From: Bacilli bacterium
Lineage (GTDB): Bacteria > Bacillota_I > Bacilli_A > ML615J-28 > CAG-698
Reading direction: 5' to 3'
Assembly (NCBI GenBank): GCA_918272565.1
Contig: CAKJYW010000008.1
Coordinates: forward strand, 1 to 64,000
DNA length: 64,000 nt
Below the pieces are notes generated by a model. That model was not told the DNA's origin, made no database searches, and saw only the letters and a program-made list of their open reading frames with translations. Positions within the stretch are counted from its first letter, which is position 1. Every line of letters starts with the position of its first letter. Shown in pieces: positions 13,078 through 17,637 of this stretch. Both the position numbers and the translations under genes were made by a program.

Positions 13078-13108
13078 AACATTGGTAAAAAATATATTTT
13101 TAGTTTGT

Positions 13109-13138
13109 TTGATTATTTATTATAAAACGTGTTATAAT
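13109..13138 (+). promoter_or_regulatory. Promoter of the ABC exporter operon
   Basis: TTGATT (13109-13114), 18 bp spacer, TATAAT (13133-13138) with upstream TGT (extended -10). It lies inside the longest reading frame, which supports the downstream start at 13157. Confidence 0.7.
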
Positions 13139-13156
13139 CATTTAAAGGTGTCAAAA

Positions 13157-14959
13157 ATGAAGTCGTTTAAGTATTCGTTTAAATCTTTAATAATGCTAGT
13201 CAAAAGATATCCAGTATATCTACTAATTGAAGCTGTTAGCCTAGTATGTGGAATTGTTTCTACAGTTGTACCAGTTTATTTGATTAGAGATGTAGTAAAT
13301 ACCTTTACAGAAAGTAGCTTTCAAATCCAATCAGTTGGTCATTTTATGGATTTGGTTGGATATAAGATACTAATCTATGTTGGTATTGAACTTGGTGCTG
13401 TCTTGATTTCCCTTTTAATGGACTTTTTAAAGAGTTACATTGAAAGAGGATTCTATGTGTATGTGGCAACATCATTATTTAAAAAGCTTGATAGTATCGA
13501 CTATGAGTTCCATGAAAACGCAAGCTTTTTGGATAATTACACTAGAGCCTTAGAAAATGGTGATCAAAACATTTACAATGCTGCTACAGGCCAAGTGCAA
13601 CTAATTAAGATTATCTTTCAAAGTGCATCATTATTAGCGATTGTTTTTACAATTAATTATTTAGCAATTGTATATGCTATTGCTATTGGAATAATATATT
13701 ACTTTATTAGAATTAGAGTTAATAAACTTAACTTTGAGCATCGTAGTGCCGCAATGCCATTAAACAGAAAACGTAACTACATTTCAAGAGTAATGTACGT
13801 TAAAGAATCAATGGCTGATATTAAAACAACTGACATTAGCGATGTTTTACTTGAAAACCATAAGAATCAAAGTGATGAACTCTTGGCTGTTGCGAAAGGT
13901 TATTTAAAGAAACAAACATTGTTCCAAATCTTAGGTACCCTTGCAATGACATCTGCCTATCCAGTTATAATTGGAATAGTAGCTTATTTTGTTTTAGAAA
14001 CTAAGGACTTAGGAAGCTTAGCAAGTTTAACACTTGCTGCAAGTTCTTTGTCTAACTTAATCAGCCGTTTTGTTAACCAAATCACAACAATTCAAAATTA
14101 CTCACTTGAAGCTAAAGTTTCATTTGATTTGCTTGATATGAGTGGTAAGATTGAAGGCGTTAAAAAGCAAGAGGTTGAAGAGAATTTCAAAAAGCTTGAA
14201 ATCAAAAACATCGAGTTTGCCTATGTTGATGATCGAAAGATTTTAAATGATATTTCCCTATATATTAATAAGGGTGAGAAGATTGCAATTGTTGGGGAAA
14301 ATGGAGCAGGTAAGACAACACTAGTCAAGTTACTACTTCGTTTGTATGATGTAAATAAAGGTGAGATATTATATAATGATGTTCCTTATACTAACCTTAC
14401 ACCACTTTCATTAAGAAAGAAAGTTGGTGCTGTTTTCCAACAGCCAGAAGTTTATAGTGTTACGGTTGCGGAAAATGTATTGCTTCGTAAGTGCGAAACA
14501 AAAGAAGATGAGGACCTTGTAATTGAGGCATTAAAGTTTAGTGATTTATATGACTATGTAGCGACCCTTGAAGATGGAATTCATACAATGGTAACCAGAG
14601 AATTCCATAGACGTGGTACCATTTTCTCAGGTGGCCAAACGCAAAAGCTTGCTGTTGCTAGAGGCTATGCTCAAAATTATGAACTATTTGTCTTAGATGA
14701 ACCAAGTAGTGCCCTTGATCCGATTGCGGAAACTAAGATGTACCATAACATGCTTGAACTTGGGCGTAATAAAACACTAATATTTATTTCTCATAGACTT
14801 AGTGCAACTGTTAATGTTGATAGAATATATTTATTTGAAAAGGGTAAAATTGTAGAACAAGGTAGCCATGAAGAACTAATGAAGATACCTAATGGCAAGT
14901 ATAAAGAGATGTTTGATTCTCAATCTGAAAAGTACTTAAGAGGTGAAAACCATGCTTAA
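13157..14959 (+). CDS. ABC exporter half-transporter, subunit 1
   Basis: A 600-residue fusion of a six-helix exporter membrane domain (about 1-330) and an ATPase. The ATPase has Walker A GENGAGKTT, Q-loop VFQQPEVYSVTVAENV, signature FSGGQTQKLAVARG, Walker B LFVLDEPSSALDP and switch ISHRLS. It belongs to the multidrug/lipid/peptide exporter type. The following gene encodes a second half-transporter overlapping by 8 bp, so a heterodimer is likely. Substrate unknown; no peptide precursor or protease domain is nearby. The frame runs back to 13082, but the promoter lies there, and AAAGGTG sits 7 bases before ATG 13157. Confidence 0.88.
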   Translation: MKSFKYSFKSLIMLVKRYPVYLLIEAVSLVCGIVSTVVPVYLIRDVVNTFTESSFQIQSVGHFMDLVGYKILIYVGIELGAVLISLLMDFLKSYIERGFYVYVATSLFKKLDSIDYEFHENASFLDNYTRALENGDQNIYNAATGQVQLIKIIFQSASLLAIVFTINYLAIVYAIAIGIIYYFIRIRVNKLNFEHRSAAMPLNRKRNYISRVMYVKESMADIKTTDISDVLLENHKNQSDELLAVAKGYLKKQTLFQILGTLAMTSAYPVIIGIVAYFVLETKDLGSLASLTLAASSLSNLISRFVNQITTIQNYSLEAKVSFDLLDMSGKIEGVKKQEVEENFKKLEIKNIEFAYVDDRKILNDISLYINKGEKIAIVGENGAGKTTLVKLLLRLYDVNKGEILYNDVPYTNLTPLSLRKKVGAVFQQPEVYSVTVAENVLLRKCETKEDEDLVIEALKFSDLYDYVATLEDGIHTMVTREFHRRGTIFSGGQTQKLAVARGYAQNYELFVLDEPSSALDPIAETKMYHNMLELGRNKTLIFISHRLSATVNVDRIYLFEKGKIVEQGSHEELMKIPNGKYKEMFDSQSEKYLRGENHA

Positions 14960-16739
14960 AGATTTGATGAAAAACATTAGAGTTGCAAAATTCGTATTTA
15001 AGTTCTGCCCAGGATACTTTGTATTCTCTTTGATTAATATTGTTATTGGAGCCTTCTTAGCTTTAGCTAAAGTTAAGTTGATTCAATATGTTGTAAAACT
15101 TGTAAGTGAGAATGAACCGTTTAATAGTGTTGTAGTGATCCTTGCAATATATGGCGGTATTTTGTTTGTTGGTTCACTTTACCAAACAATATATTCTAAT
15201 TATATTCAAAGAGTATACAGTACAATGTATGTCAACAAGATGCAAAACTACTTGCTAGGAAGAGTTAAAAATGTTGACTATTCTGACTTTGACAACCCAG
15301 AGTTTTATGATTCTTATTCAAGAGCCTTAAGAGATGGTACTTGGAGAGGAATTAATGTTTATGAAAACTTTGTAAATCTAATTGGTAGTTTAGTTAATAC
15401 AATTACCTTAGGAACATTCATCATCTTAAGTGATTATATGTTAATTGCTATTGTATTAATATCAATTATCTTTAGTATTATAGTTAATATAAGAACTAAT
15501 AAGTTATGGCATGATTTAGACTTCAAGAATGAGAAGAGCAGAAGAATGCATTTCTATATCAATCGTGTCTTCTACCAACAAAGATTTGCAGCAGAGATTA
15601 AGACAACTCCTATTAGTGATTTATTAATTCAAAGATATAATGATAGTCATCGTGAGATGTATCACAATTATATCAATATGCAAGGTAAGATCTTAGTTTG
15701 GAACACTTTCAAAAACATTGTTTCATACATTTTTGAAAATGCCTTAGTACTACTTTACTTAGGAGTTAAGTTATTTATTAGGTTTACAATCACTGTTGGT
15801 GATTTCACATCAGTGATTAATGCCACAAACCAATTTAAAAACAATGTATTAACAATGGCTAATGCTTTCAATACTATTAAACTTCATGCTTTATATATCG
15901 ATGATTTCTTAAAGTATGTTGATTATAAACCAGGGCTTGAAACTGTTGGAACTGATAGTGTCAAAGAAGACTTTAAAGAACTTAACATTCAAGATGTTAA
16001 TTTCACTTATCCTGGTAATACCTATCGAAGTGTTGTTAACATGAATCTAAAGATTGAAAAGAATGAGAAATTGGCAATTGTTGGACTAAATGGTGCTGGT
16101 AAAACAACACTAATAAAACTATTACTTAAGTTTTATAATCCAGATAGTGGAAAGATATTATATAACGATCAAAACGTTCGTGATTTAAAAGAAGATGAAA
16201 TTAGAAGAAAATACTCAATAGTCTTCCAAGACTTCCAAATCTATGCTGTTAGCATTGCTGAAAACATCTTGATGCGTAAATATACTGAAGATGATGATAG
16301 TATGATTTGGAAAGCATTAGAAGATGTAGGATTAGCTTCTAAGATTCGTAGTCTTCCAAATGGTATTCACACAATGGTTACTAGAGAATTTGAACGTGAT
16401 GGTATGGTATTTAGTGGTGGTGAAAAACAAAGGTTAGTAATCGCTAGAATCTTGGTTAGCGATGCTAAGGTATGTATCTTAGACGAACCTACTAGTTCAC
16501 TAGATCCACTGGCTGAGCGTAATATCAACCAACTAATCATGGAAAAGAGCGCCGATAAGACAATCATCATTATCGCTCACCGTCTTTCAACCGTAGTTGA
16601 TAGTGATAGAATCATTTTAATTGAAAATGGTGAAATTGTTGAAAGTGGAACTCATGATGAACTGATGAATGAGAAGAATAGATATTATAAGATGTTTACT
16701 TCTCAAGCATCGCTTTACCAAAAACTTAAAGAAAGTTAA
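14952..16739 (+). CDS. ABC exporter half-transporter, subunit 2
   Basis: A 595-residue partner of the preceding half-transporter with the same plan: six-helix membrane domain, then an ATPase with Walker A GLNGAGKTT, VFQDFQIYAVSIAENI, signature FSGGEKQRLVIARI, Walker B VCILDEPTSSLDP and switch IAHRLSTV. Both ATP sites look complete, unlike many heterodimeric exporters with one degenerate site. Both copies share unusual wording (VDYSDFDNPEFYDSYSRAL here, IDYEFHENASFLDNYTRAL in subunit 1), so they look like diverged duplicates. GTG 14943 belongs to the Shine-Dalgarno AGAGGTG, so ATG 14952 is used. A terminator follows at once. Confidence 0.88.
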   Translation: MLKDLMKNIRVAKFVFKFCPGYFVFSLINIVIGAFLALAKVKLIQYVVKLVSENEPFNSVVVILAIYGGILFVGSLYQTIYSNYIQRVYSTMYVNKMQNYLLGRVKNVDYSDFDNPEFYDSYSRALRDGTWRGINVYENFVNLIGSLVNTITLGTFIILSDYMLIAIVLISIIFSIIVNIRTNKLWHDLDFKNEKSRRMHFYINRVFYQQRFAAEIKTTPISDLLIQRYNDSHREMYHNYINMQGKILVWNTFKNIVSYIFENALVLLYLGVKLFIRFTITVGDFTSVINATNQFKNNVLTMANAFNTIKLHALYIDDFLKYVDYKPGLETVGTDSVKEDFKELNIQDVNFTYPGNTYRSVVNMNLKIEKNEKLAIVGLNGAGKTTLIKLLLKFYNPDSGKILYNDQNVRDLKEDEIRRKYSIVFQDFQIYAVSIAENILMRKYTEDDDSMIWKALEDVGLASKIRSLPNGIHTMVTREFERDGMVFSGGEKQRLVIARILVSDAKVCILDEPTSSLDPLAERNINQLIMEKSADKTIIIIAHRLSTVVDSDRIILIENGEIVESGTHDELMNEKNRYYKMFTSQASLYQKLKES

Positions 16740-16743
16740 AAAT

Positions 16744-16772
16744 AATCTCCGTGGAATTCACGGAGATTTTTA
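16744..16772 (+). terminator. Terminator of the ABC exporter operon
   Basis: A 10-bp stem AATCTCCGTG / CACGGAGATT with loop GAATT, followed by TTTT. Confidence 0.88.
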
Positions 16773-16830
16773 AGTTAAATTTAAGTTATGACATTATAAT
16801 TAAAAATGATATAAGAAAAAGAATAAATAA

Positions 16831-16857
16831 TTAGCACTAAATAGGTTAGAGTGCTAA
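16831..16857 (+). promoter_or_regulatory. CIRCE-like element (HrcA operator)
   Basis: TTAGCACTA, 9 bases, then GAGTGCTAA. The known CIRCE is TTAGCACTC-N9-GAGTGCTAA, so 17 of 18 defined bases match with the exact 9-base gap. It ends 7 bases before the -35 of the TetR gene promoter. A TATAAT at 16795-16800 upstream could give a longer transcript carrying the element in its leader, the usual CIRCE position, but that second promoter has no good -35. HrcA itself is not in this window. Confidence 0.75.
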
Positions 16858-16864
16858 AAAATAG

Positions 16865-16893
16865 TTGACATTTTTAAATCTTAGGGGTATAAT
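16865..16893 (+). promoter_or_regulatory. Consensus promoter of the TetR gene
   Basis: TTGACA (16865-16870), 17 bp, TATAAT (16888-16893): the best sigma-A promoter in the window. Confidence 0.88.
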
Positions 16894-16917
16894 AATATTA
16901 GAATCGAGGTGAATCTT

Positions 16918-17511
16918 ATGCCAACAAGAACATTTTTAAACTTGCCTAAGGAAAAGAGACTTAGAGTTTTAAGAGCTGCTAAAAAAGAATTTAGTAGAGT
17001 ACCTTTAGAAAAAGCGGTTATTGCTAACATTGTTAAAGATGCTGATATTCCTCGTGGTAGTTTCTATCAATATTTCTATGACGTTGATGATCTATTTGTT
17101 TATGTACTTGAATACATGTATGGTATCGATCGAAAGAAATTTATGAAGTTCTTGAATGATACTAATGGCGATATTTACGAAGCACTAAAGATTAGATTCG
17201 CAGATGAGATTGATAAATTATCAAGTGAAGAAAATAGGCAATTTAAAATTAATGCGATAACAACATTACTAAATCAAAATGGCACTTCTTCAAAGTTGAT
17301 TCCACTTGCAATTGAAAAACAAAACCAAGTTGATTTAACTTATTTCCCAATTGAAGTTCAAAAACAAAAGAATTTTGATAACTTCATGAATATTGTGAAG
17401 ATGATTGGTAATATTTGTGTTCAAAAATATATTACTAAACAAGCAAACGAAGACGAAATCAAAAACTATTACAACGATTGTATTGATTTTGTTAAGAGTG
17501 GTTTACAATAG
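16918..17511 (+). CDS. TetR/AcrR family transcriptional regulator
   Basis: A 197-residue regulator. The N-terminal helix-turn-helix reads AAKKEFSRVPLEKAVIAN..VKDADIPRGSFYQYFYDVDDLF, with the family's GSFYxYF recognition helix. The helical C-terminal domain, where a ligand would bind, has no known signature. Its gene stands alone with a perfect promoter and a CIRCE-like operator, which would place it under heat-shock repressor HrcA; that is inference. It lies between the ABC exporter operon and queT, and the exporter is a natural candidate target. GTG 16909 is part of the Shine-Dalgarno GAGGTGA, so ATG 16918 is chosen. Confidence 0.9.
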   Translation: MPTRTFLNLPKEKRLRVLRAAKKEFSRVPLEKAVIANIVKDADIPRGSFYQYFYDVDDLFVYVLEYMYGIDRKKFMKFLNDTNGDIYEALKIRFADEIDKLSSEENRQFKINAITTLLNQNGTSSKLIPLAIEKQNQVDLTYFPIEVQKQKNFDNFMNIVKMIGNICVQKYITKQANEDEIKNYYNDCIDFVKSGLQ

Positions 17512-17518
17512 AACGAAT

Positions 17519-17551
17519 AATCTTCATGGCATATGCTATGGAGATTTTTTT
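17519..17551 (+). terminator. Terminator after the TetR gene
   Basis: AATCTTCATGGC pairs with GCTATGGAGATT (two G-U pairs), followed by TTTTTTT. Confidence 0.8.
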
Positions 17552-17582: not shown

Positions 17583-17587
17583 ACCTA

Positions 17588-17632
17588 AAGAGATGTTCCT
17601 TGCCTAACCATCTCAAATAAAAAACAAGGAGA
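17588..17632 (+). ncRNA. preQ1-I riboswitch, translational type
   Basis: The leader has hairpin P1, GAGATG (17590-17595) with CATCTC (17609-17614), an A-rich tail (AAATAAAAAA), and then CAAGG (17625-17629). CAAGG can pair with CCTTG (17598-17602) in the P1 loop, giving the H-type pseudoknot of the preQ1-I class. The pairing covers the first part of the Shine-Dalgarno AAGGAG, so ligand binding would block translation of queT. The queuosine-precursor transporter gene directly downstream fits. Confidence 0.9.
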
Positions 17633-17637
17633 TTAAA

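Follow-up and report, generated by a model that had tools for sequence, protein, structure and literature searches.

HrcA regulons are narrow and conserved, and the genes of the HrcA/CIRCE (class I) heat-shock regulon encode a chaperone or protease, with the element placed across the -35 or the start region. Heat raises the HrcA-dependent promoters of Acholeplasma laidlawii about 100-fold and also elicits a response from nine further regulons (PMC5138195). Functional CIRCEs in Mollicutes contain at most two mutations (PMC5138195, PMC4245973), and in Mycoplasma gallisepticum a CIRCE has been described in a degenerate dnaJ promoter (PMC4245973). In Geobacter sulfurreducens, a CIRCE is found 5' of rpoH, with a predicted control of this regulator by HrcA (PMC545781). 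In Lactobacillus plantarum, 29 regulator genes, some of them of TetR/AcrR types, were induced when hrcA was lost, the directness of this effect not being demonstrated in that study (PMC3842655). No CIRCE-controlled TetR was found in the literature searched.

The locus described here has in common with the class I regulon the operator sequence, its spacing, an intact HrcA and, elsewhere in the genome, canonical targets. However, it differs in that the gene following the element is a tetR gene, and in that the element is located 5' of the -35. Thus, the type of system is known, and tetR as its target would be new. The relevant features lie in the window, the whole stretch of 64,000 nucleotides that was analysed, and are the following:

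13082 to 16739, plus strand: two ABC exporter half-transporter genes 5' of tetR, an adjacency that is not conserved
16744 to 16768, both strands: terminator-like hairpin dividing the ABC exporter pair from tetR
16795 to 16800, plus strand: isolated TATAAT pointed out in the earlier note, without a matching -35 and probably not a promoter
16831 to 16857, no strand assigned: CIRCE (HrcA operator), TTAGCACTAAATAGGTTAGAGTGCTAA, 17/18 consensus match, N9 spacer
16865 to 16870, plus strand: -35 hexamer TTGACA, beginning 7 nt past the CIRCE
16888 to 16893, plus strand: -10 hexamer TATAAT, with a 17-nt spacer from the -35; promoter match 12/12
16918 to 17511, plus strand: tetR-family gene, 197 aa, single-gene unit, ATG at 16918, TetR_N domain
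17519 to 17546, plus strand: terminator-like hairpin 3' of tetR

The element reads TTAGCACTA-AATAGGTTA-GAGTGCTAA, with the half-sites flanking the N9 spacer. Set against the pattern used to define a CIRCE (TTAGCACTC-N9-GAGTGCTAA, few mismatches allowed), it has the exact spacing and the 17 of 18 matching positions that the earlier note had claimed. The sole mismatch is an A for C at position 9, one of the two positions that vary most (of 46 sites of the family, 63% have C here and 15% have A), and the matrix score ranks 26th of 47, mid-range among the family's heat-shock CIRCEs. With one mismatch only, the site is inside the two-mismatch limit for Mollicutes. Judged by its sequence, the element is a bona fide CIRCE.

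When up to three mismatches are allowed, it is the single match in the window (shuffled sequences giving a mean of 0.04). With about 136 kb of the source genome as training data, a first-order Markov model predicts 6e-5 sites with at most one mismatch for the window and 0.0016 for the whole genome of 1.69 Mb, and a reversed control pattern gave 0 matches with at most one mismatch in 395 genomes of the class. The Markov expectation and the empty control therefore place the match above ordinary background, and the claim that it is unlikely by chance stands, with the caveat that this CIRCE was picked out of a large scan of many windows, so that chance weighs more. Such a scan enriches rare accidents, which favours an explanation in which the site is due to chance or functionally idle, having arisen by mutation, so that HrcA may bind it and tetR expression would not be meaningfully altered. 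We consider this unlikely, although far from negligible, since the expectation for one intergenic region would be far less than that for the genome and the reversed pattern is absent from the whole class.

The CIRCE occupies an intergenic region of 178 bp, between two terminators and directly 5' of the perfect promoter, from which a transcript start near 16900 is predicted. As tetR lies between two terminator-like hairpins, a single-gene transcript is probable, and the earlier description of a lone TetR-family gene with a perfect promoter and a CIRCE 7 nt 5' of its -35 was accurate. It had also been suggested that the TATAAT at 16795 could give a longer transcript carrying the CIRCE in its leader; the hexamer is indeed present, but the promoter search found no pair of hexamers at that position. 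The CIRCE as the operator of a divergent gene was rejected, the minus strand of the intergenic region being without a worthwhile open frame.

The encoded protein contains the N-terminal helix-turn-helix domain expected of the family (PF00440, TetR_N, E 1.6e-5, narrowly past the cut-off). Its best PDB relatives are 3vok, which we take to be Lactococcus HrtR, and 3nrg, both alike in the N-terminal DNA-binding domain (E 1e-12 and 1e-11, respectively). However, the likeness ends at residue 67-74 and therefore neither ligand nor targets are transferable. TetR-family genes frequently repress themselves via upstream palindromes, and the palindrome might be the operator of TetR itself, its resemblance to CIRCE being incidental. 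In this sense, paralogues about 37% identical to this TetR have palindromes of the TGACA-N3-TGTCA type over the -35 (upstream regions L035, L024, L025 and L036), which suggests that these paralogues could be self-repressed. Nevertheless, the TetR of a same-genus relative (G003) has, by eye, a nearly identical helix-turn-helix, yet no CIRCE-like palindrome upstream, and in 11 orthologues the CIRCE matrix is blank and no shared palindrome appears. Moreover, a 17/18 match to the operator of a different repressor would be a coincidence, and we regard this as the least probable of the explanations weighed here.

The source genome (G000) is a draft of 47 contigs and looks like a metagenome bin, which is what its relatives are, and an assembly or binning artefact could have joined a CIRCE promoter to tetR. 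However, the CIRCE is interior to a 93-kb contig, and the order tetR, queT, ABC-F, GNAT and next ABC-F is common to the source genome and G003, which makes such an artefact very unlikely.

The gene for HrcA, the presence of which had been proposed as a check, is intact in G000 (C47:12919-13944, 341 aa, PF01628 E 1e-53), with both the DNA-binding and the C-terminal domains, and stands 5' of grpE and dnaK. At up to three mismatches, this genome contains five CIRCE sites, which correspond to clpB, htpG, two at hrcA (the hrcA-grpE-dnaK operon) and tetR. All the remaining sites being at clpB, htpG and hrcA, the CIRCE pattern is specific in G000. The further expectation of CIRCEs at dnaK and groES was confirmed for hrcA-grpE-dnaK and failed for groESL, as a canonical groEL was not found in G000. 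A bona fide CIRCE, an intact hrcA and CIRCEs at hrcA-grpE-dnaK, clpB and htpG together make it very probable that the HrcA of G000 can bind the element at tetR. In the family as a whole, 39 sites with at most one mismatch were found in 28 genomes, 38 of them 5' of a heat-shock gene (clpB, htpG, hrcA, Hsp20 or groES) and the tetR site being the only exception. These targets were assigned from the following reading frame and its neighbours, or by the promoter layout for the site of G004, where the coding sequence is masked.

Neither canonical groEL nor Hsp20 was found in G000, and, with HrcA kept, its usual GroEL partner may be missing. The only Cpn60-like gene of this genome (L156:691-3000, on C13) is very diverged, is preceded by an ORF that weakly matches Cpn10 and is possibly phage-borne. 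In G003, a gene for a very diverged GroEL-like protein (L120:5806-7359, minus strand; PF00118, 517 aa, sharing about 23% identity with the canonical GroEL of the family) is located directly 5' of the tetR orthologue. Taken together, the groEL and Hsp20 gaps of G000 and the GroEL-like gene of G003 make it conceivable that the CIRCE was left beside tetR by a rearrangement in which a chaperone operon (groEL or Hsp20) was lost, and the CIRCE left in a pseudogene promoter of M. gallisepticum (PMC4245973) offers a parallel. However, a tblastn search detected no groEL remnant in the window, the groEL-like gene of G003 lacks a CIRCE, and the intergenic region shows no DNA similarity to the other CIRCE promoters of G000. 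In addition, the companion chaperone promoter would be gone while the CIRCE is near-perfect, which passive decay would not predict, and a relic of this kind thus seems distinctly improbable. The duplication of another promoter region of G000 was rejected in the absence of a meaningful DNA match.

With respect to the predicted start, the CIRCE at tetR extends from about -69 to -43. In the aligned sites of the family, two arrangements were observed: in the first, the CIRCE starts a few bases past the -10 (clpB, proximal hrcA and proximal groE/Hsp20, with the exception of clpB in G025 and G016, where the -10 is further upstream), and in the second it contains the -35 TTGACA (htpG and distal hrcA). 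The tetR CIRCE shows no overlap with the core promoter or the start region of the kind seen in these aligned sites, and this different register is again compatible with a site that has no function. A class-wide search for a CIRCE followed by a perfect promoter revealed four genomes in the sister family f2 (G031, G039, G038 and G042), all of genus g20 (L178, L179, L180 and L181), in which the CIRCE of htpG lies 5' of a TTGACA/TATAAT promoter; in the family of the window, this layout was seen only at tetR. The gap between CIRCE and -35 is 17-18 nt at these htpG genes and 7 nt at tetR, about one helical turn apart, and htpG is, unlike tetR, a classical chaperone target. Furthermore, another CIRCE-like repeat appears past the -10 in two of the four, whereas the other two have no visible second CIRCE in the region read. 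The htpG precedent therefore indicates that the placement at tetR, although unusual, occurs naturally at a bona fide heat-shock gene. The remaining class-wide matches fell either at Hsp20, as double CIRCEs, or at genes divergent from clpB/Hsp20. Among the latter, in L176, L177, L175 and L183 the CIRCE separates clpB or Hsp20 from a gene read in the opposite direction (e.g., dihydrolipoamide dehydrogenase-like or peptidase-like, named by eye); as this gene has its own perfect promoter beside the CIRCE, HrcA might act on both sides.

The conservation that the earlier note had put forward as a test is where its reading fails. The relatives compared are other species than the source, and the family contains 11 TetR orthologues (49-79% identity), none of which has a CIRCE within 300 bp 5' of the gene, the best matrix scores being at the level of shuffled sequences. 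This includes the same-genus orthologue of G003, 79% identical, in which the -35 TTGACA is kept and no CIRCE is present upstream. Therefore, there is no cross-species sign of selection, as would also be the case for an idle site. No tetR orthologue was seen in G001 and G002, the remaining members of the genus, G002 being 61% complete and the absence in G001 being uncertain, as its contig stops just 5' of queT. Taking G003 and the other orthologues together, the simplest account is that the tetR CIRCE was gained in the lineage of the source species, and the wiring of tetR would thus be a recent change, common to no examined relative.

The proposed control of the adjacent ABC exporter by TetR finds no support in synteny, and hence none from comparison, because the exporter adjoins tetR in no relative. 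Instead, the recurrent neighbours are downstream ECF transporter genes (a CbiQ-like component and a double ATPase) and/or QueT. A PreQ1 riboswitch-like element is found in the window at 17586-17633, in the expected location 5' of queT, with a score of 28.2, below the Rfam curated cut-off of 39 bits (E 0.002); a closely similar sequence is also present 5' of queT in G001 (L161).

With somewhat better than even confidence, we favour the explanation that HrcA genuinely uses the element as an operator, that this operator arose in this lineage, and that it places the single-gene tetR unit in the HrcA (class I) heat-shock regulon, tetR being a probable new, non-conserved HrcA target. A match so close that chance hardly ever yields it, the mid-range matrix score, the intact HrcA, the exclusive association of the other G000 sites with heat-shock genes, the intergenic promoter position and the htpG precedent support it. 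Counting against it are the 0/11 orthologues, the condition of being the only non-heat-shock site of 39, a geometry unlike that of the aligned family sites and the selection from a large scan.

The DNA shows the operator and its neighbouring promoter, as well as HrcA and the rest of the regulon; from these we infer binding, repression, heat induction and a downstream effect as follows. Under non-stress conditions, an HrcA dimer would sit on the element, covering the DNA just 5' of the -35, the usual contact of the RNA polymerase alpha subunit, and would thereby lower tetR transcription. Under heat or protein-folding stress, HrcA would let go and the level of TetR would go up, altering the expression of TetR's own targets. 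A more speculative extension, possible yet doubtful in our opinion, is that, in a lineage that had lost groESL and Hsp20, HrcA acquired control of a second-tier TetR repressor via the CIRCE 5' of the -35, resulting in a species-specific heat-shock cascade that would reach transport/efflux genes. As with rpoH of G. sulfurreducens, the tetR product would be a predicted second-tier regulator under HrcA, but rpoH encodes a heat-shock sigma factor and this TetR has no known heat-shock link.

In sum, a heat-shock operator stands before an unrelated regulator gene in an Acholeplasma-like gut bacterium, and this regulator may be under heat-shock control. If the site were an accident or a relic, it would illustrate that regulon prediction can be led astray even by an operator with 17/18 matches. 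The site also bears on whether HrcA represses from 5' of the -35. Given that every other close match in the family is at a heat-shock gene, the added regulator would be, if the favoured explanation is true, a clean natural example of an ancient repressor gaining a target, set in a genome with few regulators.
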